Shown: in pieces, positions 9,714-25,867 of the stretch
How positions within the stretch are numbered: the stretch's first letter is position 1
Layout of the letters: every line of letters begins with the position of its first letter
NCBI RefSeq assembly: GCF_001618005.1
Contig: NZ_LQXA01000029.1
Coordinates: 1-37,936 of the forward strand
Direction: 5' to 3'
Length of the DNA stretch: 37,936 bases
Source: Clavibacter tessellarius
Lineage (GTDB): Bacteria > Actinomycetota > Actinomycetes > Actinomycetales > Microbacteriaceae
Notes under the pieces: generated by a model
Databases searched by the model: none
What the model was told of the DNA's origin: nothing
The model's input: the letters and a program-made list of their open reading frames with translations, nothing else
Made by a program: the position numbers and the translations under genes

Positions 9714-11972
9714 GTGGACGACGCCAGCGAGCAGAACGCGATCCCCGAGCCGGAGCCCACCGAGATCACCTACGACGAGGACCGCTTCCCGGCGCGCCCC
9801 GCCCGGCTCCGCTCCCGCCCCCAGATGCGCGCGAGCGGCATCCGCCGGTCGTCGTCCGACCCGCGCGCCGCCGACGCGTCGAACCCCTCCTACGTGGAGT
9901 GGCTCCGCCGCCAGTCGATGCTCGGCGACGCCGACGTGCTGAGCCGCGGCCTCTCCGGCTCGCCCAGCATGTGGTCGAACCCGTACGCGCGCCCCGACGC
10001 GCGCCGCGCCATCGACACCGCCTCGGTCTGGTTCACCGCCTACCCGATCTCGCTCATCACCAAGCCCGGCGAGACCTACCTCAGCGCGCTCGGCGACCCC
10101 GAGCTGTGGGCGATCTTCCAGTCGATCGGCATCGAGGCCGTGCACACCGGACCCGTGAAGCTCGCCGGCGGCATCACCGAGTGGTCGCAGACCGCGAGCG
10201 TCGACGGCCACTTCGACCGCATCAGCACCCAGATCGACGCCGCCTTCGGCACCGAGGACGAGTTCCGCCGCCTCACCGAGGTCGCCGACCAGCACGGCGG
10301 CAGCGTCATCGACGACATCGTGCCCGGCCACACCGGCAAGGGCGCCGACTTCCGCCTCGCGGAGATGGGCTACAAGGACTTCCCCGGGATCTACCACATG
10401 GTCGAGATCCCCGAGGAGGACTGGCACCTCCTGCCCGACGTGCTGCCCGGCCGCGACGCCGTGAACCTCGACGTGGCCGCCGAGCAGGCGCTCGCCGACC
10501 AGGGCTACATCATCGGCCGCCTGCAGCGGGTCATCTTCTACGCGCCCGGCGTGAAGGAGACCAACTGGAGCGCCACCGCGCCCGTGCTCGGCGTCGACGG
10601 CCGCACGCGCCGCTGGGTGTACCTGCACTACTTCAAGCAGGGCCAGCCCTCCATCAACTGGCTCGACCCCACGTTCGCCGGCATGCGCATGGTCATCGGC
10701 GATGCGCTGCACTCGCTCGGCGACCTCGGCGCGAGCGCGCTGCGGCTCGACGCCAACGGCTTCCTCGGCGTGGAGAAGAGCGTCGAGGGTCCGGCGTGGT
10801 CCGAGGGCCACCCGCTCTCGGAGGCCGCGAACCACCTCATCGCGAGCATGGTGCGCAAGGTCGGCGGGTTCTCCTTCCAGGAGCTGAACCTCACGATGGA
10901 GGACATCCGCGACACCGGCCGCGTGGGCGCCGACCTCTCCTACGACTTCATCAACCGGCCCGCGTACCAGCACGCGCTCGCGACCGGCGACACCGAGTTC
11001 CTGCGCCTCACGCTCCGCACCTCGCTCGAGGTGGGCGTCGAGCCCGTCACGCTCGTGCACGCGCTGCAGAACCACGACGAGCTCACCTACGAGCTCGTGC
11101 ACTGGGCGACCGAGCACTGCGCCGACGTGTTCCCGTTCCGCGGCGACGAGATGACGGGCGCGGACCTCGCGGAGACGATCCGCGGCGACCTGCTCGAGGA
11201 GCTCACGGGCGAGAGCGCGGACTACAACCACGTGTTCACGACGAACGGCATCGCCTGCACCACGGCATCCGTCATCGCGGCCGCGCAGGGCTTCACGACG
11301 CTCGACGCGATCGGGGACGACGACGTGGCCGGGATCCGCGCCGCGCACCTCCTGCTCGCCAAGTTCAACGCGTGGCAGCCGGGCGTCTTCGCGCTCTCCG
11401 CCTGGGACCTGCTCGGCGTGCTGCCGCTGCACGCGTCGCAGGTGGCCGACCTCATCGAGGGCGGCGACACGCGCTGGGTGCACCGCGGCGGGCACGACCT
11501 GCTCGACGGGGCGCCCGAGGCGACCGGATCCGCGTCCGGCATGCCGCGCGGCCGCTCGCTCTACGGGTCCCTCCCCGCGCAGGTCGACGACCCGTCGTCG
11601 TTCGTCTCGGGCCTCCGCAGCGTGCTCGAGGTGCGCGAGCGCTTCGACGTGGCCGTCGGCACGCAGGTCGACGTCCCGGACGTGGGCCACCACGGCATGC
11701 TCGTGATGGTCCACCGCCTCGACAACGGCGACGCGTCGGGCGACGCGCGCCTGCAGCTCACGGTGCTGAACTTCACGGGCGAGCCGATCCTCGCGACGGT
11801 GCGCTCCGAGGAGCTGCCCGCGCGCCGCACCGTGCGCGACGCCACCACGGGCGAGGAGGTCGGCACGGTCGACGACCTGTCCAGCTTCCCCGTGCAGCTC
11901 GAGCCCTACGCGGGCCTGTTCCTGCTGCTCGACGAGGCGCCCGAGTCCGACGAGGAGGACGCCGAGCAGTAG
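9714..11972 (+). CDS. GH13-type alpha-glucan enzyme, trehalose synthase/amylase-like, atypical
   Basis: This 752-residue protein has a complete but unusual GH13 (alpha-amylase superfamily) active site. A region I equivalent I-D-D-I-V-P-G-H sits at about 199-206, where classical members read D-V-V-x-N-H. Region II has R344-L-D346 (D346 the likely nucleophile). E390 lies in F-S-F-Q-E-L-N (acid/base) and N453-H-D-E456 carries D455, the transition-state Asp. Annotation pipelines often call such proteins maltose alpha-D-glucosyltransferase (TreS), but the altered region I leaves the reaction open. There is no signal peptide, so it is cytoplasmic. The N-terminus is acidic and the C-terminus ends in a very acidic tail. 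GTG at 9714 is chosen for its AGGAG ribosome-binding site 5 bases upstream. The gene stands alone, divergent from the CoA-transferase, and ends at a strong terminator. Confidence 0.75.
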
Positions 11973-12924: not shown

Positions 12925-14619
12925 GTGCCCGACATGCCCCACCGCCCCACCGAGCACGGCATCGACGCGGGCGCGCCGGACCGCGATCCCGCGGCGGACG
13001 GCCCCGGCTCCGGCTCCGGCACCGCACGGCGCGACCTCGTCGCCCGAGGATCCCGCCTCGACGACCTGCTGGCCCGCCTCGTCACCACGCCCGGCCGCCG
13101 GCGCGCGCTCGAGTGGGGCACCGTCATCGCGATCGCGCTGCTGGCGGCCGTGCTGCGCATCCAGTCCCTCGGCCACCCGGACGCGCTCGTCTTCGACGAG
13201 ACCTTCTACGTGAAGGACGCGTGGACCCTCCTCCACCTCGGCTACGAGGGGTCGTGGCCGAACGACCCCAACCCCGCCTTCATCGCCGGCCAGACGGACG
13301 GGTACCTCCAGGCGCCCGGGTTCGTGGCGCACCCGCCGCTCGGCAAGTGGGTCATCGCGCTCGGGCTCGCGGTCTTCGGCGCGGCGGATCCGGTGGGCTG
13401 GCGCATCGCGACGGCCGTCGTCGGCACCCTCGCCGTGGTCCTCCTCACGCTCATCGCCCGCCGCCTCACCGGATCCGCGGTCGTCGCCGCGATGGCCGGG
13501 TTCCTGTTCGCGATCGACGGCCACGCCATCGTCATGAGCCGGATCGCGCTCCTCGACACGCACGTGATGTTCTTCGGCCTGCTCGGCGTGGGCGCGATCC
13601 TCCTCGACCGCACCTGGCACGAGCGCCGGTTCGCCTCGCTCCTCGCCGTGCGCCGCGACGCCCGCCCCGAGACCGCGCCCCCGCTCGAGTTCGGCCCCGT
13701 GATCCTGTGGCGTCCCTGGCTGATCGCGGCCGGCGTCGCGTTCGGCGCCACCTCGTCGGTCAAGTGGTCGGGCCTCTTCTTCCTCGCGGGCTTCGGCCTC
13801 TACGTGGTGCTGAGCGACATGCTGCTGCGCCGCCGCCACGGGCTCGCCGCGTGGTTCACGGCGGGCGCCGTCGTGCAGGGTCCGATCTCCTTCCTCCTCC
13901 TCGTGCCGCCCGCGATCATGGCGTTCCTCGCCTCGTACGCCGGCTGGTTCGCCACCTCGAACGGGTACTTCCGCGGCTGGGCCGCGGAGGGGACGAACGC
14001 CTGGCAGGGCGGGCTCGCGTGGGTGCCGCTGTCGATCCAGAGCCTCTGGCACTACCTCGCGCAGCAGTACGCGTTCAACGTGGGGCTCGACGTCTCGCAC
14101 CCGTACCGGGCGGATCCGCGCCTCTGGCTGCTCCTCTACCGGCCCACGCAGTTCTACTACGAGGCCTCCGGCTACGGGCAGTCGGGCTGCACGGTCGACG
14201 CGTGCTCGTCGTCCATCACCTCCATCGCGAACCCGATCATCTGGTGGCTCTCGGTCGCGGCGATGCTCTACCTCGTCTACCGCCTGGCCGCCCGCCGCGA
14301 GTGGCAGGTGGGCCTCGTGCTCATGGGCATCGCGGTGGGGTACCTGCCGTGGCTGCTGTACGTGAACCGCACGGTGTTCCAGTTCTACTCGATCGCCTTC
14401 GAGCCGTACCTCATCCTGTGTCTGGCGATGGTGCTCGGTCTGGTCCTCGGCGACCGGCGCGACGCGCGTCCCCGGCGGACGCACGGCATCGTGATCGTGG
14501 CCGCGGTGCTCGCGGTGTGCGCGCTCGTCAGCGTGTTCTTCTACCCGCTGTGGACCGGCCAGCTCGTGCCGACCTGGTTCTGGCGGTTGCACGCGTGGAT
14601 CCCGACGGGCTGGATCTGA
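12925..14619 (+). CDS. pmt: Pmt-type protein O-mannosyltransferase (GT39)
   Basis: This 564-residue polytopic membrane enzyme has a hydrophilic, basic N-terminus of about 65 residues and a first transmembrane helix (V-I-A-I-A-L-L-A-A-V-L). The first extracytoplasmic loop contains F-D-E-T-F-Y-V-K-D, with the Asp-Glu pair essential in the Pmt family, and H-P-P-L-G-K-W follows. About ten further hydrophobic segments complete the protein. Actinobacterial Pmt transfers mannose from polyprenyl-phosphate-mannose to Ser/Thr of exported proteins at the outer face of the membrane. The GTG start at 12925 gives the family-type N-terminus. The stop overlaps the ATG of the downstream YeiH-family gene, so the two are co-translated. 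In mycobacteria pmt is adjacent to and divergent from rsmI; here they are 6.9 kb apart. Confidence 0.9.
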   Translation: MPDMPHRPTEHGIDAGAPDRDPAADGPGSGSGTARRDLVARGSRLDDLLARLVTTPGRRRALEWGTVIAIALLAAVLRIQSLGHPDALVFDETFYVKDAWTLLHLGYEGSWPNDPNPAFIAGQTDGYLQAPGFVAHPPLGKWVIALGLAVFGAADPVGWRIATAVVGTLAVVLLTLIARRLTGSAVVAAMAGFLFAIDGHAIVMSRIALLDTHVMFFGLLGVGAILLDRTWHERRFASLLAVRRDARPETAPPLEFGPVILWRPWLIAAGVAFGATSSVKWSGLFFLAGFGLYVVLSDMLLRRRHGLAAWFTAGAVVQGPISFLLLVPPAIMAFLASYAGWFATSNGYFRGWAAEGTNAWQGGLAWVPLSIQSLWHYLAQQYAFNVGLDVSHPYRADPRLWLLLYRPTQFYYEASGYGQSGCTVDACSSSITSIANPIIWWLSVAAMLYLVYRLAARREWQVGLVLMGIAVGYLPWLLYVNRTVFQFYSIAFEPYLILCLAMVLGLVLGDRRDARPRRTHGIVIVAAVLAVCALVSVFFYPLWTGQLVPTWFWRLHAWIPTGWI

Positions 14620-15623
14620 TGCCCGCCACCGCCGCCCGCCTCCCTCCCGCGCTGCCCGGCCTCGCGGCCGCCTCCGCCGCCGCGCTCGTCGCGTGGGCGG
14701 TGCACGCGCTCGTCCCGGCGATCCCGCTGCTCACGGTCGCGGTCGCGCTCGGCATCGTCGCGGCGCAGATCCCGGCCGCCCGCCCCGCGCTCACCGGGCC
14801 CCTCAAGCCCGGCCTCACGCTCGCGTCGAAGCGGCTGATGCGGATCGGCGTGGTGCTCCTCGGCCTGCAGCTCGGCCTCTCCGACATCGTCGGCCTGGGC
14901 TGGCGCGCCGTGCTGCTCGTGGTCGCGGTCGTGGTCCTGTCGTTCGCTGGCACGTACGCCATCGCCCGCGTGCTCCGGATGCCCGGGCAGCAGCCGCTCC
15001 TCCTCGCGACCGGCTTCTCCATCTGCGGCGCGAGCGCCATCGGCGCGATGGCGGGCGTCACGCGCGCGAAGCCCGCCGACCAGGGCGCGCCCGTCGCGCT
15101 CGTCACCCTCTGCGGCACGCTCGCGATCGCCGTGCTGCCGCCGCTCGCCGGACCGCTCGGCCTCGACGACGTCGCGTTCGGGCACTGGGTGGGCGCGGGT
15201 GTGCACGACGTGGGGCAGGTGGTCGCGACGGCGCAGATCGCCGGATCCGCCGCCCTCACCATCGCGATCGCCGTGAAGCTCACGCGCGTGCTGCTGCTCG
15301 CGCCCGTGGTCGCGATCGCGGGCGTCGTGATGCGCCGCCGCGAGGGCCGCGTCGAGGGCGCCGCGCGTCCGCCGATCGTGCCGCTGTTCGTGCTGGGGTT
15401 CCTCGCGGCCGTGCTCGTGCGCACCTTCGTGCCGGTGCCGGGCGGCGTGCTCGACGCCGCGCAGGTCGTGCAGACGGCGCTGCTCGCGATCGCGCTCGTG
15501 GCGCTCGGATCCGCGGTGCGCCTCCGCGAGCTCGTCGGCCAGGGCGGATCCGCGCTCGCCGCCGGCCTCCTCTCCTGGGCGCTCATCGCGGGCCTCGCGC
15601 TCGCGGCGGTGCGCCTGTCCTGA
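14619..15623 (+). CDS. YeiH/UPF0324-family putative sulfate exporter
   Basis: This 334-residue protein has about ten hydrophobic helices and two family signatures: F-S-I-C-G-A-S-A-I-G-A-M in the first half and G-A-G-V-H-D-V-G-Q-V in the second. Both are diagnostic for the YeiH/UPF0324 family. Members are predicted anion exporters, annotated as putative sulfate exporters; the substrate is poorly established. Its ATG at 14619 overlaps the pmt stop codon by one base (TGATG). Proximity to metY downstream makes sulfur metabolism a possible theme, but metY has its own promoter and the link is only suggestive. Confidence 0.85.
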   Translation: MPATAARLPPALPGLAAASAAALVAWAVHALVPAIPLLTVAVALGIVAAQIPAARPALTGPLKPGLTLASKRLMRIGVVLLGLQLGLSDIVGLGWRAVLLVVAVVVLSFAGTYAIARVLRMPGQQPLLLATGFSICGASAIGAMAGVTRAKPADQGAPVALVTLCGTLAIAVLPPLAGPLGLDDVAFGHWVGAGVHDVGQVVATAQIAGSAALTIAIAVKLTRVLLLAPVVAIAGVVMRRREGRVEGAARPPIVPLFVLGFLAAVLVRTFVPVPGGVLDAAQVVQTALLAIALVALGSAVRLRELVGQGGSALAAGLLSWALIAGLALAAVRLS

Positions 15624-15639
15624 TCCGCGTCCGCCCGCG

Positions 15640-15709
15640 CATGTCGCCGCATGCCGGCGCATGCCGCACGCATGTCGCCGCATGCCGCACGCATGTCGCC
15701 GCATTACGG
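15640..15709 (+). repeat. short tandem repeat (CATGTCGCCGCATGCCG units) before metY
   Basis: A unit beginning CATGTCGCCGCATGCCG recurs at 15640, 15671 and 15692. The last two starts are exactly 21 bases apart, the first unit has a 10-base insertion that repeats GCATGCCG, and the last copy degenerates. It lies between the YeiH-family stop and the metY promoter. It is not a CRISPR: there are no unique spacers and only three units. Confidence 0.7.
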
Positions 15710-15739
15710 CCCGGCCCGGGAACGCCCGGGAGCCCCGGT

Positions 15740-15745
15740 TAGCGT
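15740..15745 (+). promoter_or_regulatory. -10 box TAGCGT, leaderless start for metY
   Basis: TAGCGT ends exactly 6 bases before the ATG at 15752, and no ribosome-binding site is present, so metY is probably transcribed as a leaderless message. Confidence 0.5.
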
Positions 15746-15751
15746 GACCCC

Positions 15752-17047
15752 ATGGTCGATCGCGAGTACGGGTTCAAGACGAGGGCGATCCACGCGGGCA
15801 ACATCCCCGACGCCACCACGGGTGCGCGCGCCCTCCCCATCTACCAGTCGAGCGCGTTCGTCTTCGACGACACCGCCGACGCCGCCGCGCGCTTCGCGCT
15901 GCAGAAGTACGGCAACGTCTACTCGCGCCTGTCGAACCCCACGGTCGCGTCGTTCGAGGAGCGCGTCGCGAGCCTCGAGGGCGGCCTCGGCGCGGTCGCC
16001 ACGGCGAGCGGGCTGAGCGCGCAGTACATCACCTTCGCCTCGTTGGCCGGCGCCGGCGACCACATCGTCGCCTCCGCGGCCCTCTACGGCGGATCCATCA
16101 CCCAGCTCGACGTGACCCTCCGCCGCTTCGGCGTGGAGACCACGTTCGTGCAGTCGAGCGACCCGGCCGACTACGCCGCCGCGATCACCGACCGCACCAA
16201 GCTCGTCTTCGCGGAGACCGTCGCGAACCCGTCGGGCGAGATCGCCGACATCGAGGGGCTCGCGGCCGTGGCGCACGCGACGGGGGTCCCGCTCGTCATC
16301 GACTCCACCATCGCGACCCCGTACCTCAACCGGCCCATCGAGTGGGGCGCCGACATCGTCATCCACTCGGCCACCAAGTTCCTCGGCGGGCACGGCACCA
16401 CCCTCGGCGGCGTGGTCGTCGAATCGGGCCTCTTCGACTGGGAGAGCGCCCGCTTCCCCCTGCTCGACCAGCCCGTGCCGAGCTACGGCGGCCTCAACTG
16501 GACCGGCAACTTCGGCGAGTACGCGTTCCTCACCCGCCTCCGCGCCGAGCAGCTCCGCGACATCGGGCCCGCGCTCGCGCCGCACTCCGCGTTCCTGCTC
16601 GCGCAGGGCGTCGAGACCCTGCCGTACCGGATGCAGGCGCACATCGACAACGCGCGGGCCGTCGCCGAGTGGCTGGATCAGGATCCGCGCATCACCGCCG
16701 TCAACTGGGCCGGCCTCCCCGCGCACCCGCACCACGAGCGCGCGCGCAAGTACCTGCCGACGGGACCCGGATCCGTGTTCACGTTCGAGGTCGCGGGCGG
16801 CCGCGCGGTCGGCCAGCGCTTCATCGAGTCGGTGGAGCTCGCGAGCCACCTCGCCAACATCGGCGACGCGAAGACCCTCGTCATCCACCCGGCCTCCACG
16901 ACCCACGCGCAGCTGAGCGAGTCGCAGCTGGTCGACGCGGGCGTGCTGCCGGGCATCGTCCGCATCAGCGTCGGCATCGAGGACGTCGCCGACATCATCC
17001 ACGACCTGGACCAGGCGCTCGCCGCCGCCACGGAGACCGCGAAGTGA
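15752..17047 (+). CDS. metY: O-acetylhomoserine aminocarboxypropyltransferase (sulfhydrylase)
   Basis: This 431-residue PLP enzyme of the Cys/Met metabolism family carries the start F-K-T-R-A-I-H-A-G, the N-terminal Y-x-R segment V-Y-S-R-L-S-N-P-T, and the PLP lysine K209 in H-S-A-T-K-F-L-G-G-H-G. The length (over 420 residues) and the late segment R-I-S-V-G-I-E-D-V are those of the MetY/O-acetylhomoserine sulfhydrylase branch rather than cystathionine gamma-synthase. It makes homocysteine from O-acetylhomoserine and sulfide in the cytoplasm. The last bases overlap the GTG start of the CoA-binding protein gene, a common actinobacterial operon. It appears leaderless, with a -10 box 6 bases before ATG. 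Confidence 0.92.
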   Translation: MVDREYGFKTRAIHAGNIPDATTGARALPIYQSSAFVFDDTADAAARFALQKYGNVYSRLSNPTVASFEERVASLEGGLGAVATASGLSAQYITFASLAGAGDHIVASAALYGGSITQLDVTLRRFGVETTFVQSSDPADYAAAITDRTKLVFAETVANPSGEIADIEGLAAVAHATGVPLVIDSTIATPYLNRPIEWGADIVIHSATKFLGGHGTTLGGVVVESGLFDWESARFPLLDQPVPSYGGLNWTGNFGEYAFLTRLRAEQLRDIGPALAPHSAFLLAQGVETLPYRMQAHIDNARAVAEWLDQDPRITAVNWAGLPAHPHHERARKYLPTGPGSVFTFEVAGGRAVGQRFIESVELASHLANIGDAKTLVIHPASTTHAQLSESQLVDAGVLPGIVRISVGIEDVADIIHDLDQALAAATETAK

Positions 17048-17799: not shown

Positions 17800-17843
17800 C
17801 AGCCGCGTACCACACTCCGGCGCCGCTGAGAGAGGCAAATGAG

Positions 17844-17867
17844 GATGCATTAGCGTTCGTGTGCATC
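17844..17867 (+). promoter_or_regulatory. promoter flanked by an inverted repeat at the head of the type VII toxin operon
   Basis: TAGCGT at 17851-17856 is a -10 candidate. It is bracketed by GATGCA (17844-17849) and its reverse complement TGCATC (17862-17867). A protein bound to this repeat would cover the -10 box and transcription start. It lies about 70 bases before the first gene of the toxin operon. No -35 box is evident, so an activator could be involved. Confidence 0.35.
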
Positions 17868-17935
17868 GCTCGCCGGAGGACGGCGCCGAGCGGGTGCAGC
17901 TTCATCCCCTCGCGCTCCCGTCGGACAGAGGCGGC

Positions 17936-19042
17936 ATGTCGAGCGATCAAGCGCTGGCCCTTCCCCATCCGCTCGTCGACGACATGGGCCCCGGATGGGT
18001 CCGCACGGAGACGGACGCGCTCCGCGTCGGTGCGAGTTCCGGACGCCTCGACCTGCTCACGTACGCACTCCGCAACCGCTCGACGCTCATCCTCGTGACA
18101 CGACCGAGCGCGCGCCTCACGGTCCCGCTCTTCCAGCTCCTGCAGGCGACGGGATCGGAATGGCGCACGCGCGACGACGACGGGACCCTCCGCCGGGCGC
18201 TCACCGGTGTCGCCGTCGACCGACCGGTAGCCGACGGACTCGAGGAGATCCCCCGCCGCCGTGAACGAGGGACCCCCGACCGACCTGGCCCGTGGCCCAG
18301 CGGGCAGCAGGCCGATGCGCCCCTCGGCGCCTGGCTGCAGTTCGCCGTCGCGACCCACCATCCGGCGCGTGCGGAGACGATGCTGGGTAGAGGGCTGCAG
18401 GAGCTCGTCAACGAGATCGACCCCGACACGACCATCTCTTGGGGCACCTCCGAGCCCACCACGCTCGCGTGGGACCGGCGCGTCCTCACCCGCACGGCCC
18501 GCGAGCGCATGCCGCGCGGGTCCCGGTTCTTCGCCGCCGGCCATGGCGCCTCTGCGTTCCGCGCCACCATCACCGTGACTCGCACCGCGCTCGGCGTCAC
18601 CGAGGAGACGAGCGTCGTCTTCGCGGTCGCGGAGGAGGTGGCGGGGAGCGACGCAGCAGCCAGGCACGCGCTGTCCCGCGTCGCGCGGCGTCAGCGTCTG
18701 CTGGTCGGCTCGGCGTGGACCCTACGCGGCGGCACCGACTGCACGGTCACCGCCGGACGCGAGGTCGTCCCCGACCCCGTCGCCGCCGCGGTCGGTCCCC
18801 ATGTCGTCCGCATGCTCGACTTGGAAGGCGCCGGAGCGGATCGGGTCCCCGGCGCGGTGAAGGTCGGCCGACTCCGTGCCGAGGCGCTCCTCGTCGGCTT
18901 CGGCCAGGACGAGGACCGCTGGCGCTCGTTCGCGGAGGCCATCCGGGGTGTCGGCATCTCCGAGGCGACGAACGCGCTGTTCGGGCAGGAGCCCGATCGG
19001 ACGCCCCCGCAGGAGACCGCGGAGGCGCATCGTGCCTCGTGA
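17936..19042 (+). CDS. type VII secretion-associated protein, DUF6177-like
   Basis: This 368-residue soluble protein has no signal peptide or membrane helix. From memory of actinobacterial type VII loci it resembles the DUF6177 family, which sits beside WXG/LXG substrates and may act as a chaperone or specificity factor; that assignment needs a profile search. Visible features are S-T-L-I-L-V-T-R-P-S-A in the N-terminal third, H-H-P-A-R-A-E-T-M-L-G in the centre, and the C-terminal segment G-R-L-R-A-E-A-L-L-V-G-F-G. The ATG at 17936 is preferred over an in-frame GTG at 17861 because it has an AGAGG site and the 17861 codon falls in the predicted promoter repeat. It overlaps the next gene by 11 bases, making a tight operon with the toxin. 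Confidence 0.6.
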   Translation: MSSDQALALPHPLVDDMGPGWVRTETDALRVGASSGRLDLLTYALRNRSTLILVTRPSARLTVPLFQLLQATGSEWRTRDDDGTLRRALTGVAVDRPVADGLEEIPRRRERGTPDRPGPWPSGQQADAPLGAWLQFAVATHHPARAETMLGRGLQELVNEIDPDTTISWGTSEPTTLAWDRRVLTRTARERMPRGSRFFAAGHGASAFRATITVTRTALGVTEETSVVFAVAEEVAGSDAAARHALSRVARRQRLLVGSAWTLRGGTDCTVTAGREVVPDPVAAAVGPHVVRMLDLEGAGADRVPGAVKVGRLRAEALLVGFGQDEDRWRSFAEAIRGVGISEATNALFGQEPDRTPPQETAEAHRAS

Positions 19043-19367
19043 GTTCATCATCGCGTCGCCGACGCCCGTCACCATGCTGCACTGCATCGTCGGCGCCGCG
19101 GCCGTCGACCCGGATCTCGGGTTGGCGCGCGTGGTCGGTGACGGCGCGGTTCAGATCGCAGGTGAGGGGCTCGTGCTCGCGGTGGTGCGCAGCGCGCGAG
19201 TCGAGGAGCCGGCCGATGCCGAGCGGCTCTTCGGCCATCCTCTTCCGGCCGGGACGACGTGCCTCAGCGAGGCCTACGGCCCGTTCGGCGAGGCCATGAC
19301 GCCGCAGGTGGTGCACGAGATCGCGCGACTCGCGGGCGGCACCGCATTCGAACCAGGAGGTCAGTGA
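19032..19367 (+). CDS. small type VII-associated protein of unknown family
   Basis: This 111-residue protein has no signal peptide; its composition is mixed alpha/beta with A-E-G-L-V-L-A-V-V-R-like hydrophobic strands. I do not recognise the family. GTG at 19032 has a GGAGGCG ribosome-binding site within the end of the preceding gene, and the stop overlaps the next start (TGATG). Sandwiched between the DUF6177-like protein and the WXG-like protein, it is most likely an adaptor or chaperone used to export the toxin. This is inferred from position only. Confidence 0.55.
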   Translation: MPREFIIASPTPVTMLHCIVGAAAVDPDLGLARVVGDGAVQIAGEGLVLAVVRSARVEEPADAERLFGHPLPAGTTCLSEAYGPFGEAMTPQVVHEIARLAGGTAFEPGGQ

Positions 19368-19768
19368 TGAGCGGATGGAGCATCGAGCCGGAAGGCGTCA
19401 GACAGGTGCTGAACAAGGTCCAGGACGACGCGAAGGAGCTGTCGACCGCCTTCGGTGGAATCGCGAATGCGCAGGAGTCGCTGGATGGCGGATCCGGCGC
19501 GACGGCGGCGAGCACGGCCGTCAGCCAGTGGAGGGTCGCCGCGACGCCGCTCCTCGCCCCCGTGGCGGCGGCCGTGGTCGGGCTGCTCGAATCCGAGCAG
19601 TCGCGCATCGCCGGCATCGCCACCCGCATCGAGGCCTGCGGCGTCGGAGCGGGCAACGCGACTATGGCCTATCTCCAGGGCGATGAGGAGATGGCCGCGT
19701 CGACGCAGCGGACAGCCCTCGCCGCCGCGTCCTCCGGCGACCTCACGGCACTGGAGAACCGCTCATGA
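19367..19768 (+). CDS. WXG100/DUF6507-like small helical secretion partner
   Basis: This 133-residue mostly helical protein opens M-S-G-W-S-I-E-P-E-G-V, which from memory matches the start of DUF6507 proteins in actinobacterial type VII loci. Heptad-like Ala/Leu patterns and a Q-W-R turn near the middle resemble WXG100-superfamily hairpins, although a strict W-x-G is not visible. Such small partners usually bind the N-terminal helical domain of an LXG-type toxin to make a composite export signal. It overlaps the upstream gene at TGATG and the downstream toxin at ATGA, a translationally coupled order that supports heterodimer formation with the toxin. Confidence 0.6.
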   Translation: MSGWSIEPEGVRQVLNKVQDDAKELSTAFGGIANAQESLDGGSGATAASTAVSQWRVAATPLLAPVAAAVVGLLESEQSRIAGIATRIEACGVGAGNATMAYLQGDEEMAASTQRTALAAASSGDLTALENRS

Positions 19769-21792
19769 TCGCCGAGCTGATCAAGCCGCATCTGATCCCG
19801 GGCACGGACATCGACCCGGGACTCGTCTCGAACTCGGCGACCTCCTATTCGAAGACGGCGACCGCGATCAGCACGCACGCGAATGCGGTCGTCACGAGCT
19901 GGTCGGGGCTCTCGGAGCACTACTCGGCTCCGGAGGCACCGGAGCTCCTCGCGGCGATGAGTCCCGTCGGTACCGACGCGCAGACGGTGGCGGACAAGCT
20001 GACGAAGGTGAGCACGCTGCTCGACCAACTGGCGAGCGACATCGCCACGCCCGTCAGACGCTTGAAGGAGCTCCAGGCGGAGGCAGAGGACTTCGTCGCG
20101 AAGGTGGGCGGGGGCGTCGACATCACCGTGACGGGCTCCACCGGGACGACGAAGCACCATGTGCAGTGGTTCAACCACCAGGAGACGCTGGACCGCAACA
20201 ACGACCTGATCGCGCAAGTCGATGCCGAGGTCGCGAAGATCTCCACGGCCAGCGCGACGTGCATCGACGGCATCAATCGGTTGCGCGGTGACCAGTGCAT
20301 GCCGATCGCGCCGGCCGTCTCGGCCGAACAGCTCTTCGCGAGCCCCGACGTGTCCTGGGGGAATGTCGGACGGGCGCCGCGCGGATGCGGGGTGTCGGCC
20401 TCCGCCGGGTTCCTCACCTTCGTCGGAGGCACATGGGATGGCATCGCCGCCATCGGTGGCTACAACACGGCGGACGGGACCGAGAAGTTCAGCACGTCGC
20501 TCAACGCCATCGGCGGCATAGCCTCGGGGCTGGGCACGCTCGCGATCACGCTCGCGTCTCCCACCACGGCCCTCACTGCATTCGCCCCCTCCGAGGACGT
20601 CCCGGAACCGCTTCGGGGCCCGCAGGCCTGGTATAGGGAGAACCTGCAGGCGCTGGCGTCCGGGATCGCGGGGACGCCCGAGCAGTGGGACGACGACCCG
20701 GTCGCCGCCGGGACCACCGGGCTCCTCGGGCTCGGATCCCTGTTCGTCGGCGGTGCCGGGATCGTGCCCGACTCGCTCCGCGGCGCATCGATCCTCGCCC
20801 GCACCGGAGGCGCGCTCGAGCACGCCTCCACCCTCGCGACCGACGGATCACGCCTCGCCGCCGGCCTGAGCCGCGCCGGGACCCTCACGACCAAGGTTGC
20901 CGAGCTCCTCGGCGCGAACCCGCGCCTGGCCCTCGTCACGACCGACGACGAGACCATCCAGGCCTACTTCCGCGGCCTCGCAACCGACGGCGCAGACGAC
21001 GGCCTCGTCCGCGACACCACGCTCAGCACCACCATCCACGACCTCGCCGAGGCCGAGAAGCACGCGGAGGCGCTACCGGATCCTGTGCCGAGCCACGTCA
21101 ACACGCCGCCGGATGAGACACACGAGACGGGCCCCGGAAGGGGTATCCACGCAGTAGATCCGACTGACACGGACACCGACCACCTGTCCGCAACCGAATA
21201 CTTCCCCGAAGCGAAAGGCGCCCATCTCGGTAGCCCACAAGCGCCGCACGAGACCCCACCTACGGGCCCGCACGCGCCTACCGGTGACGACTACTGGAAG
21301 CCCCTCAGCCACGACGAGATCCAAAACCTCCCTGTGGTGCGCGACGGTAGTCACCTTGTCGACGGCAAGCTCAGCCCCAACACCTGGTACCAGACCGGCG
21401 AACACGAGTACCTCTACCGGACCAACGAACACGGCCACATCGACCGCGTCATCGCCGAAGACCTGCGTTTTACAACGCGCGAAATCCGTCCACCCCATGA
21501 CCCGAACACCCTCGGTAAGATCCAGGGCGTCGACCACGCCGGGCATCTCATCGCGTTCCGCTATGGCGGCTCCGACGAACTTGACAACCTCGTCTCACAA
21601 CTCATACGCATCAACAAGAGCAGGTACTATCGGGTCGAGAATCAATGGGGCCGAGCCCTTTCGGCCGACCCACCGCAACGAGTAAGCCTCGACCTCCGCA
21701 TCGACACCGACCCCGTGACTGGTAGACCCTATCGCTTTGAAGTCAATTATGACATCGATGGCGAAAGCTTTTCGCCAGAGTTCTTACAGTAG
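19765..21792 (+). CDS. polymorphic toxin: WXG/LXG-like N-terminus with YeeF-type DNA/RNA non-specific endonuclease C-terminus
   Basis: The toxin has 675 residues. Residues 1 to about 200 are helical with a W46-S-G48 turn, like the targeting domain of type VII LXG toxins. About 217-434 is a Gly/Ala-rich hydrophobic linker that recurs nearly base for base at 22411-22980. About 435-502 is a variable acidic linker. About 503-675 is the toxic tip: Y-L-Y-R-T-N-E-H-G-H-I-D, then V-D-H-A-G-H-L-I-A-F-R-Y-G-G (D590, H594), N-L-V-S-Q, N617 and E625, ending R-P-Y-R-F-E-V-N-Y-D-I-D-G. This matches the Endonuclease_NS_2 nuclease fold of Bacillus YeeF; H594 and N617 are the likely catalytic base and metal-site Asn. 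The start overlaps the WXG-like gene. An immunity gene follows at once. The 3' third is visibly less GC-rich than the 5' part. Confidence 0.8.
   Translation: MIAELIKPHLIPGTDIDPGLVSNSATSYSKTATAISTHANAVVTSWSGLSEHYSAPEAPELLAAMSPVGTDAQTVADKLTKVSTLLDQLASDIATPVRRLKELQAEAEDFVAKVGGGVDITVTGSTGTTKHHVQWFNHQETLDRNNDLIAQVDAEVAKISTASATCIDGINRLRGDQCMPIAPAVSAEQLFASPDVSWGNVGRAPRGCGVSASAGFLTFVGGTWDGIAAIGGYNTADGTEKFSTSLNAIGGIASGLGTLAITLASPTTALTAFAPSEDVPEPLRGPQAWYRENLQALASGIAGTPEQWDDDPVAAGTTGLLGLGSLFVGGAGIVPDSLRGASILARTGGALEHASTLATDGSRLAAGLSRAGTLTTKVAELLGANPRLALVTTDDETIQAYFRGLATDGADDGLVRDTTLSTTIHDLAEAEKHAEALPDPVPSHVNTPPDETHETGPGRGIHAVDPTDTDTDHLSATEYFPEAKGAHLGSPQAPHETPPTGPHAPTGDDYWKPLSHDEIQNLPVVRDGSHLVDGKLSPNTWYQTGEHEYLYRTNEHGHIDRVIAEDLRFTTREIRPPHDPNTLGKIQGVDHAGHLIAFRYGGSDELDNLVSQLIRINKSRYYRVENQWGRALSADPPQRVSLDLRIDTDPVTGRPYRFEVNYDIDGESFSPEFLQ
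20411..21066 (+). repeat. long direct repeat, copy 1 (toxin linker)
   Basis: Bases 20500-21066 recur at 22411-22977 (offset 1911, a multiple of three, same frame) with six mismatches in my hand alignment, about 99% identity. The preceding 87 bases (20413-20499) align without gaps to 22324-22410 at only about 65%, so the high-identity tract begins abruptly. Confidence 0.85.
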
Positions 21793-21801
21793 AAGGTAAA
21801 G

Positions 21802-22299
21802 ATGAATATACGCCAAGAAGGTATCATCCGGGAGCTCGTGGGCACTTGGGTTCCCTTGGCCTTGGAGTACGCCGAGGGAGCCAATAACGTGACCACGCTC
21901 TTTATTTATGCAGGGTCCGAGCTTGGATCATATTACGCCAACGCGTTCTTTGAGCAAGAAGGACAAGTCAATTATCCAGGCAAGTTACAAGGAGCAGATA
22001 CCAGCCGTAGGCGCGTTCTCGGGATGCAACGAGGCTTCCGAGAGGCCCTCCACAAGGCTGAGGCCCAGTTCGCGGAAGCCGAGATCCCATGCCCAACTGA
22101 GTATCGGGTCAGCTATGAACCTGGACCAGGTCACCTCGATGTGCAGCTCTCACGCGAGCTTAAATATGCCCACCATCCAGTCAAGACACTGGAACACGGG
22201 CCGGAGGATTGGCTCGATGCGCGTTTACCGAAGACTTTCGGGCGCCTGATACCTCCGGAGGCCGAGTGGCCTGCGCCAGGCACAGAAACGTACGAATAA
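21802..22299 (+). CDS. immunity protein 1, YezG/DUF600-like
   Basis: This 165-residue acidic soluble protein contains A-L-E-Y-A-E-G, F-I-Y-A-G-S-E-L-G, A-F-F-E-Q, then C-P-T-E-Y-R-V-S-Y-E-P-G-P-G and L-K-Y-A-H-H-P-V-K-T-L and E-D-W-L-D. The pattern fits the YezG/DUF600 family, whose founding member neutralises the YeeF nuclease toxin, so it is the expected partner of the upstream toxin tip. ATG at 21802 has AGAAGG 5 bases before it, and the gene starts 9 bases after the toxin stop. GC content is clearly below the chromosomal average here. Three further intact paralogues lie downstream. Confidence 0.8.
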   Translation: MNIRQEGIIRELVGTWVPLALEYAEGANNVTTLFIYAGSELGSYYANAFFEQEGQVNYPGKLQGADTSRRRVLGMQRGFREALHKAEAQFAEAEIPCPTEYRVSYEPGPGHLDVQLSRELKYAHHPVKTLEHGPEDWLDARLPKTFGRLIPPEAEWPAPGTETYE

Positions 22300-22317
22300 C
22301 GAGGTAGCGGCACGTGA

Positions 22318-23682
22318 GGGCGCCTCAGCGTCATCGGAGGTGCATGGTATGTCCGCGCTACCATCGGCGGGTGCTACTCGCAGGATGACTCCGAAGAACT
22401 TGGCACCTCACTCAACGCCATCGGCGGCATCGCCTCGGGGCTGGGCACGCTCGCGATCACGCTCGCGTCTCCCACCACGGCCCTCACTGCATTCGCCCCC
22501 TCCGAGGACGTCCCGGAACCGCTTCGGGGCCCGCAGGCCTGGTATAGGGAGAACCTGCAGGCGCTGGCGTCCGGGATCGCGGGGACGCCCGAGCAGTGGG
22601 ACGACGACCCGGTCGCCGCCGGGACCACCGGGCTCCTCGGGCTCGGATCCCTGTTCGTCGGCGGTGCCGGGATCGTGCCCGACTCGCTCCGCGGCGCATC
22701 GATCCTCGCCCGCACCGGAGGCGCGCTCGAGCACGCCTCCACCCTCGCAACCGACGGATCACGCCTCGCCGCCGGCCTGAGCCGCGCCGGGACCCTCACG
22801 ACCAAGGTCGCCGAGCTCCTCGGCGCGAACCCGCGCCTGGCCCTCGTCACGACCGACGACGAGACCATCCAGGCCTACTTCCGCGGACTCGCCACCGACG
22901 GCGCAGACGACGGCCTCGTCCGCGACACCACGCTCAGCACCACCATCCACGACCTCGCCGAGGCCGAGAAACACGCGGACGCACCTCCTGCCCACGACGT
23001 GACCCCACAGGAACGGCAGCCCCACGAACCCACCGCCGAGCCCCCGCATGCGAACGAGCCGATCGATCCCGAGCAGACCACCGCCACCGACCACGCCTCT
23101 TTCCAGAAGAGCAGCCGACTCCGCACACCGGAAGCACCCGACACCGCCCCGGAACACCCGCACGCGCCCACGGGTGACGACTACTGGAAGCCCCTCAGCC
23201 ACGAAGAGATCAAGAACCTCCCCGTCGTCCGCGACGGTTCCCATCTCGTCAAGCGCAAGCTCAGCCCCAACACCTGGTACCAGACCGGTGAACACGAGTA
23301 CCTCTACCGCACCAACGAACACGGCCACATCGACCGCGTCATCGCCGAAGAAGTGCACCTCAAGGTCCACGAAGGACGGTACCGCCACGACCCCGACACG
23401 CCCGGCAAGATCAAGGGCGTCGACAACGCAAGTCACCTCTTTGCCGACTGGCTAGGCGGGTCACCCAAGCTCGACAACCTCGTGTCCTTGCTAGAGGGAC
23501 ATAATAAGGGCAGATACCTTGAAATGGAACGCAAATGGGTCACAGCACTCTCCACCGACCCACCGGGACACGTCAGCGTCGACATCCGGATTGACACCGA
23601 CCTCGCCACTGGCCGACCGACGAAAGTCACAGTAAAACATGTCACCGATGGCGAAGAGCTCACTTCAACCTTCGAACAATAG
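22318..23682 (+). pseudogene. start-less toxin cassette (linker plus alternative endonuclease tip)
   Basis: An open frame begins right after an in-frame TGA at 22315. It runs 454 codons to TAG at 23680 and aligns to toxin residues 217-675, but it lacks the secretion N-terminus. The first in-frame initiation codon is GTG 22675, deep inside the linker. Bases 22411-22980 are about 99% identical to the active gene. The variable acidic linker then differs completely. The tip begins about 89% identical and then diverges: V-D-N-A-S-H-L-F-A-D-W-L-G-G replaces D-H-A-G-H-L-I-A, keeping the His and the downstream Asn (H-N-K-G-R-Y). The frame is intact, so the tip is probably functional if joined to a secretion domain. 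It is followed 10 bases later by its own immunity gene. Confidence 0.8.
22411..22980 (+). repeat. long direct repeat, copy 2 (silent cassette linker)
   Basis: Partner of 20500-21066, in direct orientation and 1911 bases away. The identity is high enough to support homologous recombination or gene conversion between the expressed toxin and this cassette. Confidence 0.85.
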
Positions 23683-23692
23683 GAGACATGAC

Positions 23693-24175
23693 GTGCCACG
23701 AAGCGAACAGCAGATCATCCAGAATCTTATCGAGAAATGGATACCACTCGCATTGGAATACGCGGCGGGCGCCCCCGGGGTGTCGACCTTGTATATTTAT
23801 GCGGGCTCAGAGCTCGGCGGCAAATACGCAAACGCCTTCTTTGAACAGCACGGCGACGTCGTCTATCCTGGTCGCCTAGACACACCCCAGAAGAAACCAG
23901 GCATGGTCTTTCAAATGCAGGAGCTGCTGCTTGAGGATCTCAACGAAGCTGAACGAGAGTTCAAGGCCGCCGGCATACCGTGCCCCACGGAATACAGGGT
24001 CACATACGAGCCGGACCCTGGGCGCCTCGACGTACAGCTCTCGCACGAGCTCAAATACGCGAATCACCCGACGAAGATCCTCGAAGAAGGTCCGGAGGAC
24101 TGGCTCGACGGCCGCCTCGAGAAGCGCCTCGGGAAGCTGACGCCAACAGAGCAGCAGCGCCGCGAGTTGCAGTAG
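23693..24175 (+). CDS. immunity protein 2, YezG/DUF600-like
   Basis: This 160-residue paralogue of immunity protein 1 keeps E-Q-Q-I-I-Q-N-L-I-E-K-W-I-P-L-A-L-E-Y-A, Y-A-G-S-E-L-G, A-F-F-E-Q-H-G, C-P-T-E-Y-R-V-T-Y-E-P and L-K-Y-A-N-H-P-T-K-I-L-E-E-G-P-E-D-W-L. I choose GTG at 23693 because AGGAG at 23681-23685 is 7 bases away and its frame carries the conserved N-terminus; the ATG at 23688 opens a different frame. It begins 10 bases after the stop of the start-less toxin cassette, so it should match that alternative tip. It could still be translated from the same long operon transcript. Confidence 0.8.
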   Translation: MPRSEQQIIQNLIEKWIPLALEYAAGAPGVSTLYIYAGSELGGKYANAFFEQHGDVVYPGRLDTPQKKPGMVFQMQELLLEDLNEAEREFKAAGIPCPTEYRVTYEPDPGRLDVQLSHELKYANHPTKILEEGPEDWLDGRLEKRLGKLTPTEQQRRELQ

Positions 24176-24342
24176 GCCGGCCTAGACACCTTCACCATCA
24201 GCAGGCAATTTCGATTCGCGGCCTCGTCCGACTCGGCGAATCACTAGAACTCAACAACTTCATATCCAGACCAGAGGTCCACAACAAGTGCGGGTCTCTT
24301 GAGCTCGAACGAAGATTGGCAGGAGCTCTGACTATCGAATAG
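24176..24342 (+). pseudogene. decayed toxin-tip fragment (third cassette)
   Basis: Read in the frame ending at TAG 24340, the region gives L-G-E-S-L-E-L-N-N-F and then H-N-K-C-G-S-L-E-L-E-R-R-L-A-G-A-L. These align to L-G-G-S-P-K-L-D-N-L and H-N-K-G-R-Y-L-E-M-E-R-K-W-V-T-A-L of the second cassette. The catalytic G-H segment is not in this frame; a neighbouring frame around 24201 reads A-G-N-F, which may be its frameshifted and mutated relic. The fragment ends early, without the C-terminal strands. Confidence 0.55.
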
Positions 24343-24379
24343 ATGTCAGCCGATCCGATCAGTGAGGAAGGTCCAGATA

Positions 24380-24437
24380 TTGAAAGACGAGCAGCAGATC
24401 ATCCGGAACTGATCCACAAGTGGGTCCCGCTCGCCAA
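24380..24437 (+). pseudogene. immunity-gene 5' fragment with frameshift
   Basis: From TTG 24380, preceded by GAGGAAGG, the bases match the start of immunity protein 4 (E-Q-Q-I-I-x-E-L-I-H-K-W-V-P-L-A). One base appears lost in the CCGGAACTG stretch, shifting the frame. At about 24438 the similarity stops and toxin-tip sequence begins. It is a truncated and frameshifted immunity gene. Confidence 0.6.
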
Positions 24438-24574
24438 CCCTGTCCACCGACCCACCAGGACACGTCAGCCTCGACATCCGCGTCGATACCAACCCAGCAA
24501 CAGGACGACCGACACGATTTACCATCCAATACGAAATCAGAGGCGAAGAAGACATTGCCGTCTTTGACCAGTAG
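24438..24574 (+). pseudogene. toxin C-terminal tail fused to the immunity fragment (fourth cassette)
   Basis: In the frame ending TAG 24572-24574 the region reads S-T-D-P-P-G-H-V-S-L-D-I-R-V-D-T, then G-R-P-T-R-F-T-I-Q-Y-E-I, ending V-F-D-Q. This is the extreme C-terminus of the endonuclease domain, matching both longer toxin copies. It has no start and no catalytic core. It directly precedes the ribosome-binding site of the next immunity gene, keeping the normal toxin-end/immunity-start spacing. Confidence 0.7.
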
Positions 24575-24584
24575 GAGATCGCAC

Positions 24585-25082
24585 ATGGCGCAAACAGAAG
24601 CGCAGATCATACGATCACTGATCGAGAAATGGATACCCCTGGGGCTCGAATACGCAGAGGGCGCCGAAGGGGTCACCACTCTGTTCATCCACGCCGGATC
24701 GGAGCTGGGGGCGAAGCGCGCCAATGTATTCTTTGAACAGCACGGCAAAGTACTCTATCCTGGAAAACTCCAAGGGCCAGGAAACAAGCCCGGCATGGTG
24801 CATCAAGTTCAGCAGCTTCTCCTTGAAGACCTACGCGAGGCGGAACGTCAGTTCAAAGAGGCGGGCATAGCGTGCCCCACGGAGTATCGCATCACCTACG
24901 AGCCAGGCCCGGGGCGGCGTGATGTGGAATTGAGTCACGAGCTCAAGTACATCCACCACCCAGTCAAGACCCTCCAACACGGCCCCGAAGATTGGCTCGA
25001 CGGGCGTCTGGAAAAGCACTACGGCAAGCTGATTCCGCCAGAAAGCGAATGGCCAGCCACGAGACCCGCCCGAGAAGATTGA
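24585..25082 (+). CDS. immunity protein 3, YezG/DUF600-like
   Basis: This 165-residue member has E-A-Q-I-I-R-S-L-I-E-K-W-I-P-L-G-L-E-Y-A-E-G, F-I-H-A-G-S-E-L-G, F-F-E-Q-H-G, C-P-T-E-Y-R-I-T-Y-E-P-G-P-G and K-T-L-Q-H-G-P-E-D-W-L-D-G-R-L-E-K. The C-terminus E-W-P-A is shared with immunity protein 1 rather than 2. ATG 24585 has TAGGAG 7 bases upstream, the TAG being the stop of the toxin-tail fragment. Only the 3' end of its original toxin survives, so it is an orphan immunity gene that may protect against toxins of related strains. Confidence 0.8.
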   Translation: MAQTEAQIIRSLIEKWIPLGLEYAEGAEGVTTLFIHAGSELGAKRANVFFEQHGKVLYPGKLQGPGNKPGMVHQVQQLLLEDLREAERQFKEAGIACPTEYRITYEPGPGRRDVELSHELKYIHHPVKTLQHGPEDWLDGRLEKHYGKLIPPESEWPATRPARED

Positions 25083-25209
25083 CCCGCAGCTCGCTCGACT
25101 CGAGATCATCACCAACTCGACATTCGCATCCTGGCAGAGTGACCGGAAGCCCAATGCGACGATAGTCAGATACATTATCAACGGCAAAACGAGAGCCGGT
25201 CGAATCTAG
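25081..25209 (+). pseudogene. toxin C-terminal tail relic (fifth cassette)
   Basis: Between immunity genes 3 and 4 a start-less frame reads D-P-Q-L-A-R-L-E-I-I-T-N-S, then D-R-K-P-N-A-T-I-V-R-Y-I-I-N-G-K, ending TAG 25207-25209. Its layout (D-P at the start, a beta strand, then R-K-P and a final strand with N-G) parallels the end of the toxin tips (D-P-P-G-H-V-S-L-D-I ... G-R-P-T-R-F). The similarity is weak and the call rests on position plus pattern. Confidence 0.45.
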
Positions 25210-25223
25210 CAGCGAGGTCAAGT

Positions 25224-25703
25224 GTGGTAAAAAGCGAACAGCAAATCATACAGGAACTCATCCACAAGTGGGTGCCACTCGCTTTGGAATTCTGTCAAGG
25301 AGCGCCGGGAGTGACGGCGGTCTTTGTCTACGCCGGATCGGAACTCGGATCAATGCACGCAAACGCGTTCTTCGAGCAATCCGGTGCAGTCATATATCCA
25401 AATGACCTGAAAGGAGCAACCCGAGAATCCGACGTCTTCGAGCTCCAAGACCTTTTGATGCAGGATCTACTCGATGCGGAAAGAGATTTCAGGGAAGCTG
25501 TATTGCCGTGCCCGACGGAGTACCGAATCACCTACGAACCAGGCCCCGGTCGCTTGGATATGCAGCTGAGCCACGAAATCAAGTATGCCAACCACCCGAC
25601 GAAGATTCTGGAAGACGGGCCCGAGGACTGGCTCGAGGGGCGCCTCGAGAAGCACTTCGGAAAGCTGATGCCCACGGAAGAGCAACGACGCGAATGGCAG
25701 TAG
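25224..25703 (+). CDS. immunity protein 4, YezG/DUF600-like
   Basis: This 159-residue member has E-Q-Q-I-I-Q-E-L-I-H-K-W-V-P-L-A-L-E-F, V-Y-A-G-S-E-L-G, A-F-F-E-Q-S-G, C-P-T-E-Y-R-I-T-Y-E-P-G-P-G and K-Y-A-N-H-P-T-K-I-L-E-D-G-P-E-D-W-L. The C-terminus P-T-E-E-Q-R-R-E-W-Q resembles immunity protein 2. GTG 25224 follows a GAGG site. It is the last gene of the cassette array, preceded by a toxin-tail relic, and is therefore another orphan. Downstream a small hairpin may end the operon. Confidence 0.8.
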   Translation: MVKSEQQIIQELIHKWVPLALEFCQGAPGVTAVFVYAGSELGSMHANAFFEQSGAVIYPNDLKGATRESDVFELQDLLMQDLLDAERDFREAVLPCPTEYRITYEPGPGRLDMQLSHEIKYANHPTKILEDGPEDWLEGRLEKHFGKLMPTEEQRREWQ

Positions 25704-25727
25704 CTCCTCGTTCGGCCCGGATGAAGA

Positions 25728-25747
25728 GCCGCCACAGAAGCGGTGGC
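25728..25747 (+). terminator. weak hairpin at the end of the toxin/immunity array
   Basis: GCCGCC at 25728-25733 pairs with GGTGGC at 25742-25747 (one G-U pair) across an 8-base loop, 25 bases after the last immunity stop. No T-run follows. It is plausible as the operon terminator but not strong. Confidence 0.35.
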
Positions 25748-25867
25748 ATGGCATCGGCACCGCAGGAGCAAGAGGACTCGCCTGTCCGGATCGTTCCCGA
25801 CGCGCGATGTTCGAGGCCTGACGGCTCCGTCGCTAGACGATCATGCGGGGCCGAGCACGCCGCGGTG

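Follow-up and report, generated by a model that had tools for sequence, protein, structure and literature searches.

An orphan toxin/immunity module behind a probable type VII polymorphic nuclease toxin gene in Clavibacter tessellarius

Toxin cassettes are general in polymorphic toxin loci, and a survey of these systems lists toxins of the type VII secretion system (T7SS, or ESX) of both firmicutes and actinobacteria (PMC3482391). In Salmonella Typhimurium LT2, an orphan rhs-CT/rhsI pair, i.e., a headless toxin tip with its immunity gene, lies behind the main gene and has no translation start, and this tip occurs on full-length genes in other strains (PMC3967940). Truncated LrhA genes of Listeria were described as a possible template (PMC10327511). 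In the arrays of esaG of Staphylococcus aureus, the passages on these loci describe arrays of immunity genes and one small pseudogene of the TspA region, and report no complete tip modules (PMC9484751). Here, we analyze a window of 37,936 nt of Clavibacter tessellarius (the whole stretch of DNA considered: assembly GCF_001618005.1, contig NZ_LQXA01000029.1, positions 1-37,936, forward strand), in which an open frame lacking a start codon, hereafter the cassette, encodes a second nuclease tip behind a full-length toxin gene and precedes an immunity-type gene of its own.

The comparison with the known systems reveals both likenesses and differences. The stretch shared between orphan and main gene is 522 bp long at 95% identity in Salmonella and ~570 bp at 99% in Clavibacter. 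However, the former concerns an Rhs toxin of a Gram-negative bacterium in which recombination was detected in evolved lineages, whereas in Clavibacter it is deduced by comparison (PMC3967940). The T7SS orphans of Enterococcus faecalis OG1RF are alike in being genes without the N-terminus, with 5' ends matching the full toxin and full-length homologues in other strains, but they belong to a T7SSb of Firmicutes with LXG toxins, whereas Clavibacter has an EccC-type system, no LXG match, and EsaD-like tips (PMC7790226). The silent mafB-CT cassettes of Neisseria also lack an initiation codon, precede an immunity gene, and have the same tip fused in another strain; theirs is a different toxin family, which the paper describes as restricted to Neisseria (PMC4287609). 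The EsaD/EsaG system of S. aureus has a homologous nuclease tip (structures 8guo and 8gun) and strings of immunity genes behind the toxin shaped by recombination (PMC9484751). The Clavibacter tips are of this EsaD type, whereas their immunity family could not be matched to S. aureus EsaG by sequence. Rhs orphans of Serratia are reportedly the subject of a published study. Given the orphan modules of E. faecalis (PMC7790226) and the cassettes of polymorphic toxin loci, ESX/T7SS included (PMC3482391), the suggestion of an undescribed tip archive, made in the first-pass annotation of this DNA, was too strong. The survey is general, and its passages name no Clavibacter locus (PMC3482391). Nor did such a locus appear in the titles and abstract beginnings of the literature on Clavibacter type VII secretion and on cassettes of actinobacterial T7SS or polymorphic toxins, a coverage that leaves out most subscription journals and all preprints.

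The features at the core of the locus are the following.
22318..23682, + strand: start-less orphan cassette with a partial linker and nuclease tip 2 (open frame, stops upstream, alignment to the toxin)
22405..22977, + strand: shared linker tract in the cassette, the proposed recombination handle (6 differences in 561 aligned bases)
23161..23679, + strand: nuclease tip 2, EsaD-like, intact frame (PF13930, 1.1e-15; tip alignment)
23693..24175, + strand: imm2, with a GTG start 10 bases past the cassette stop (immunity alignment; GGAG upstream)
19765..21792, + strand: full-length toxin gene, 675 aa (list of open reading frames [ORFs], Pfam search)
20500..21070, + strand: shared linker tract in the active gene (near-identical to 22405-22977)
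21262..21789, + strand: nuclease tip 1, EsaD-like (PF13930, 2.3e-16)
21802..22299, + strand: imm1, immunity gene presumed to belong to tip 1 (immunity alignment; no Pfam match)

The cassette is an open frame of 454 codons (22318-23679) closed by TAG and preceded by two in-frame stops, TGA at 22315 and TAA at 22297. As the first-pass annotation had noted, it has no start: none of its first 119 codons is ATG, GTG, or TTG, and the earliest candidate is the GTG of codon 120 (22675), which has no obvious ribosome site upstream (judged by eye) and whose surrounding stretch is also present inside the active toxin gene. Long frames are common in GC-rich DNA, and since opposite-strand frames in the window reach 860 aa and are nevertheless unlikely to be genes (ORF list), length is weak evidence here. 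The frame was instead judged real because of its homology to the toxin and its match to PF13930: it aligns with the active toxin from about residue 215 to the C-terminal end, with 74% amino acid identity over 454 aligned codons. Its GC content by codon position also resembles that of the active gene. The cassette follows a full-length toxin gene of its own family and shares a stretch of high identity with it, has neither the N-terminal export region nor a translation start, and carries a tip ahead of an immunity-type gene that co-varies with this tip. It is thus well supported as a genuine orphan toxin/immunity module, and this anatomy agrees with the earlier description of a silent, start-less tip cassette that has an immunity gene of its own and sits behind an intact polymorphic toxin. 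The immunity gene was rightly placed 10 bases beyond the cassette. The claim that the cassette keeps the reading phase of the active gene stands as arithmetic, the distance to the toxin start being a multiple of three, but carries no mechanistic weight because homologous alignment, and not phase across imm1, would preserve the frame.

The linker carries the evidence for exchange. Over codons 31-217 of the cassette, only 6 of 561 bases differ from the active gene, and all these differences are synonymous, against 270 of 801 aligned bases outside the linker (Fisher p 1.4e-62). The longest exact run is 317 bp, within a near-exact repeat of ~570 bp. In blocks along the alignment, the synonymous divergence (dS) is 0-0.09 in the linker (6 changes over the ~154 synonymous sites of its six blocks) and goes from 0.47 to near saturation outside. 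Constraint on the protein does not explain such likeness because it does not hold synonymous sites alike. The first ~87 bases of the cassette are diverged (65.6% DNA identity in the first block), and since they precede the near-identical tract, the cassette is a mosaic. Such a tract between diverged ends is the pattern expected from a recent recombination or gene conversion between the active and the silent copy.

A second line of evidence comes from two other Clavibacter species (genomes G016 and G017), whose toxin loci G016:C2 (L029) and G017:C1 (L027) occupy one chromosomal site: they are 88.6% identical over 5.5 kb, covering the upstream region and most of the toxin, and 90.4% over 1.5 kb downstream. 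Between the two active genes (overall dS 0.24), dS is <=0.26 in 20 of the 23 blocks of 30 codons and 0.27-0.49 in the other three, whereas the last two blocks of the tip are at 1.2 and near saturation. The immunity genes of the two active toxins are 56.7% identical, with saturated dS. The active linker-tip-immunity stretch of G016 matches instead a silent module of G017 (13331-15029), with 92.5% DNA identity over 1.7 kb. In this comparison the last two tip blocks have dS of 0.10 and 0.15, the module as a whole has a nonsynonymous divergence (dN) of 0.039 and dS of 0.176 (ratio ~0.2), and the immunity proteins are 94.0% identical (dS 0.21). Hence, the tip end and immunity gene that are active in one species match a silent module in the other, which supports a replacement of the tip. 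The frame of the silent G017 module begins with 116 bases that are 84-85% like the DNA just 5' of the toxin start in G016 and G017, followed by the linker, which suggests that this module descends from a full gene whose N-terminal part was lost. The first-pass annotation had proposed to look for silent tips fused in frame in relatives; such a case was found for this G017 module, in the active gene of G016, and not for tip 2 of the window.

Tips 1 and 2 both belong to PF13930 (Endonuclea_NS_2, EsaD-type), and a profile built from nine tips (A1) matches the S. aureus EssD nuclease structure 8guo at 1.9e-19. Tip 2 had been described as an alternative endonuclease, but the Pfam assignments make it a variant of the active tip's own family and not another endonuclease class. 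The proteins of imm1 to imm4 align as one family, all four genes are open, and imm1 to imm3 each show a site of the GAAGG or GGAG type where the preceding tip stops or right behind that stop. The GC content is 0.73 in the linker, 0.59-0.60 in the tips, and 0.55-0.59 in the immunity genes, a contrast that would fit a resident linker joined to foreign tips and immunity genes. The distances between tip ends and those between immunity genes are correlated (Mantel r 0.73, p 0.0004) in a set of 10 hand-picked modules with a complete tip and immunity gene from five loci, excluding decayed modules, the other tip type (see below), and more distant genera. When one member of a near-identical pair is removed, r is 0.51 (p 0.0125). 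This is consistent with the tip end and the immunity gene being exchanged as a unit.

The secretion class of the toxin had been given as LXG/ESX. We rejected membership in LXG: a Pfam HMM search found no LXG domain in the toxin, and PF04740 had no match in its own genome at E 0.001, where a Bacillus subtilis control was positive. The type VII (ESX) setting held. EccC (TIGR03924) is above cut-off in only 3 of 18 Clavibacter genomes, one per species (the window's own, G000, and G016 and G017), weaker FtsK-type matches being present in all 18, and among the 18 the tip family is confined to these three. Each of them has a toxin locus ~6 kb away from EccC. The active toxin has its PF13930 tip and no second Pfam match at E 0.1; its residues 46-48 are W-S-G, which is not conserved in all homologues, and paralogues with a related N-terminus exist at further loci. 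It is probably a type VII polymorphic nuclease toxin, likely antibacterial.

We therefore regard the cassette, with a probability of roughly 80%, as an orphan toxin/immunity module that belongs to a polymorphic nuclease toxin of an actinobacterial type VII (ESX) system, with a linker that permits tip exchange. The full gene (19765-21792) would supply the N-terminal export region, the linker, and an EsaD-like tip, with imm1 as the antidote, and the module at 22318-24175 is limited to linker, tip 2, and imm2. In this state, tip 2 would be silent, having no proper translation start and no export region, and imm2 could be made from its own ribosome site. The linker of ~570 bp could let homologous recombination swap tip and immunity gene together, the frame being kept by homology. 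The antibacterial activity, export, and toxicity of the protein, the silence of the cassette in the cell, the recombination enzymes, and any use of the window's tip 2 are what we infer.

The remaining features of the window surround this core.
17811..25860, no strand: whole accessory island with the toxin locus (absent from the site in 6/7 other genomes; GC 0.647)
17861..19042, + strand: gene of a DUF6177 protein (PF19674, 7.1e-59)
19295..19768, + strand: gene of a DUF6507 protein, a WXG-like small partner, start uncertain (PF20117, 7.7e-23; weak, sub-threshold WXG100)
24229..24333, + strand: tip remnant (significant tip signal)
24383..24434, + strand: truncated immunity-gene fragment (matches the first part of imm4 at 85% identity across 53 aligned positions)
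24437..24571, + strand: tip remnant, the last ~45 codons, ending just before the ribosome site of imm3 (significant tip signal)
24585..25082, + strand: imm3, intact immunity-type gene (immunity alignment)
25224..25703, + strand: imm4, intact immunity-type gene (immunity alignment)

The island has a GC content lower than that of its flanks (0.731 and 0.739), and the six Clavibacter genomes that lack it, out of seven examined among the 17 others in the genus, have 1-39 bp between the matching flanks. G016 has ~1.1 kb of other DNA at the site of the window's 8-kb island (L083, ~9904-11023). DUF6177 has matches in 3 of the 18 genomes, namely those with tips. The stretch ahead of imm4 (25083-25222) was rejected as a tip remnant because it scores 0.5 bits against the tip profile and shuffled sequences reach 5.1, and no linker copy was found at the 3' end of the island in the window (best match 18 bases). 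The modules beyond the cassette have no intact tips and have kept their immunity genes, which suggests that immunity genes persist after their own tips decay.

Among 398 sampled genomes of the family, 21 have a tip match, 16 of them a weak one (best E 1e-12 to 7e-4). The richest comparison is with G017, where the toxin at L027 is followed by five open frames without the N-terminus (542, 507, 271, 449, and 466 codons), and the locus further holds a decayed tip and a 954-bp piece of N-terminus and linker. Of the six N-terminus-less G017 frames checked, five have a possible start within the first 11 codons and the sixth at codon 60; the possible starts, at codons 6 to 60, are unlike the situation in the window's cassette. 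The feature common to these modules is therefore the missing export region and not the missing start. Five linkers, namely those of the active gene, the 954-bp piece, and frames 6776, 8865, and 13174, match one another at 91-98% DNA identity. Local DNA matches between tips are mostly at 69-79%, with one pair at 85%. The active tip and that of frame 13174 are alike up to the last ~60 codons. The frame at 15010 has another tip type; this type and its immunity family (L027 15010-16938 and L033 3747-8921, two loci of one genome) have no Pfam match over the cut-off. At L033, a full toxin accompanies a headless module of 455 codons with the second tip type, the two copies being 84.5% identical over 1.83 kb, tip and immunity gene included. 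L033 and the locus G000:C4 of the window's genome are at the same chromosomal site (86-89% DNA identity on both sides), and therefore G000:C4 and G017 hold different tips at one site. The arrangements differ among the three genomes with the family, contrary to the possibility, raised with the first-pass annotation, that all relatives keep exactly this layout with a decayed second tip.

Related layouts were seen elsewhere. An Oscillospiraceae metagenome-assembled genome (L053 10001-16552, SVLQ01000005.1) has a similar array in a Firmicute: it carries three EsaD-like tips and, behind each, an immunity-type gene of weak match, and the units share repeats of 85-99% DNA identity. In G036, two tandem full-length toxin genes are 95% identical over 2.8 kb and differ at their ends (L030 3450-10074), and the locus also has a tandem repeat stretch at 14026-14962. 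In another genus of the family (G257, L116 and L117), several repeated toxin-like genes, ~95-99% alike in DNA and some with and some without the N-terminus, have different tips at their ends.

Several observations weigh against the preferred explanation, or limit it. The difference between G016 and G017 is confined to the immunity gene and the final ~60 tip codons, and it could have arisen in either direction: an incoming tip that displaced an old one would explain it no less well than the reuse of a stored one. Tip 2 fused to an N-terminus was not found in any genome searched (best outside matches ~62% amino acid identity), and a plasmid search for it gave only three distant records, at 30-42% identity. 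The genome sets hold one genome per species, so that switching within a species is not visible in them. In G017, the module at 15010-16410 has a linker only 77-82% identical to the others and the module at 10917-11732 lacks the shared linker. Decay with distance from the active gene is seen in the window and not in G017, where open modules lie beyond a decayed one; for this reason, a simple age gradient of decay has a place only in the archive scenario considered below. In the window's genome, EccC adjoins the other toxin locus (contig C53) and not the one studied here. A Pfam search at E 0.1 gave no match for the immunity genes, and a search of PDB sequences with their family gave no EsaG (one chain at E 0.54). 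EsaG is a DUF600 protein. Finally, the assembly is a draft of 61 contigs, and with a near-exact repeat of ~570 bp the two tips could be swapped, so that either of them may be the fused one.

The alternative that best survives, at somewhat less than even odds, is that the cassette is a displaced leftover: an incoming tip with its immunity gene would have pushed the old module downstream, where the immunity gene is kept for protection and the tip, never reused, is at an early stage of decay. It shares the orphan-module anatomy with the explanation we prefer, and the confidences in the two overlap. That the two downstream tips of the window are remnants while the four immunity genes are open fits it well, as do the tip fragment and five immunity-type genes behind the full toxin at G000:C4 and a G016 tip with stops that adjoins the active gene. 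However, tip 2 is open to its end with an intact PF13930 match, and the linker exchange looks recent, its few synonymous changes standing against the dS of 0.24 between G016 and G017. The dN/dS of ~0.2 between the silent G017 module and its active G016 counterpart also speaks against a mere leftover, though this constraint may predate the silencing. By going further than the exchange-permitting module, one could propose that type VII loci in some Clavibacter species are growing archives: new tip-immunity pairs would enter at the active linker, older ones would be pushed downstream and silenced, gene conversion would keep the linkers alike, tips could return by linker recombination, and immunity genes would outlast tips. 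We hold this broader scenario to be doubtful.

An assembly artefact, i.e., that the repeat misled the assembler into a wrong tip order or fusion, is very unlikely. The draft state and the exact run of 317 bp make it conceivable, but the two copies differ in their flanks on both sides and at six bases, a comparable layout is present on a 2.17-Mb contig of G017, and a misassembly might exchange tips but is hardly expected to produce a further copy of linker, tip, and immunity gene. About as improbable is an expressed cytoplasmic protein, made from the GTG at 22675 or by coupling to imm1 and acting as a decoy or regulator inside the cell, for which speak that in-frame GTG and the early possible starts of five of the six headless frames in G017, but against which stand the lack of a ribosome-like site at this codon, the presence of the same stretch inside the active gene, and the fact that we know of no use for a free intracellular nuclease tip.

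An orphan module with an exchange-permitting linker, which we consider the best explanation of the cassette, would extend orphan-tip exchange, as described for Rhs, MafB, and type VII toxins of Firmicutes, to the EccC-motor type VII setting of an actinobacterial genus. The loci of G016 and G017 would be two alternative states, found in nature, of a single chromosomal site, and the turnover of tips in such toxins could become measurable from collections of strains. If the archives proposed above were real, these loci would preserve a history of earlier weapons within an ESX setting of actinobacteria.
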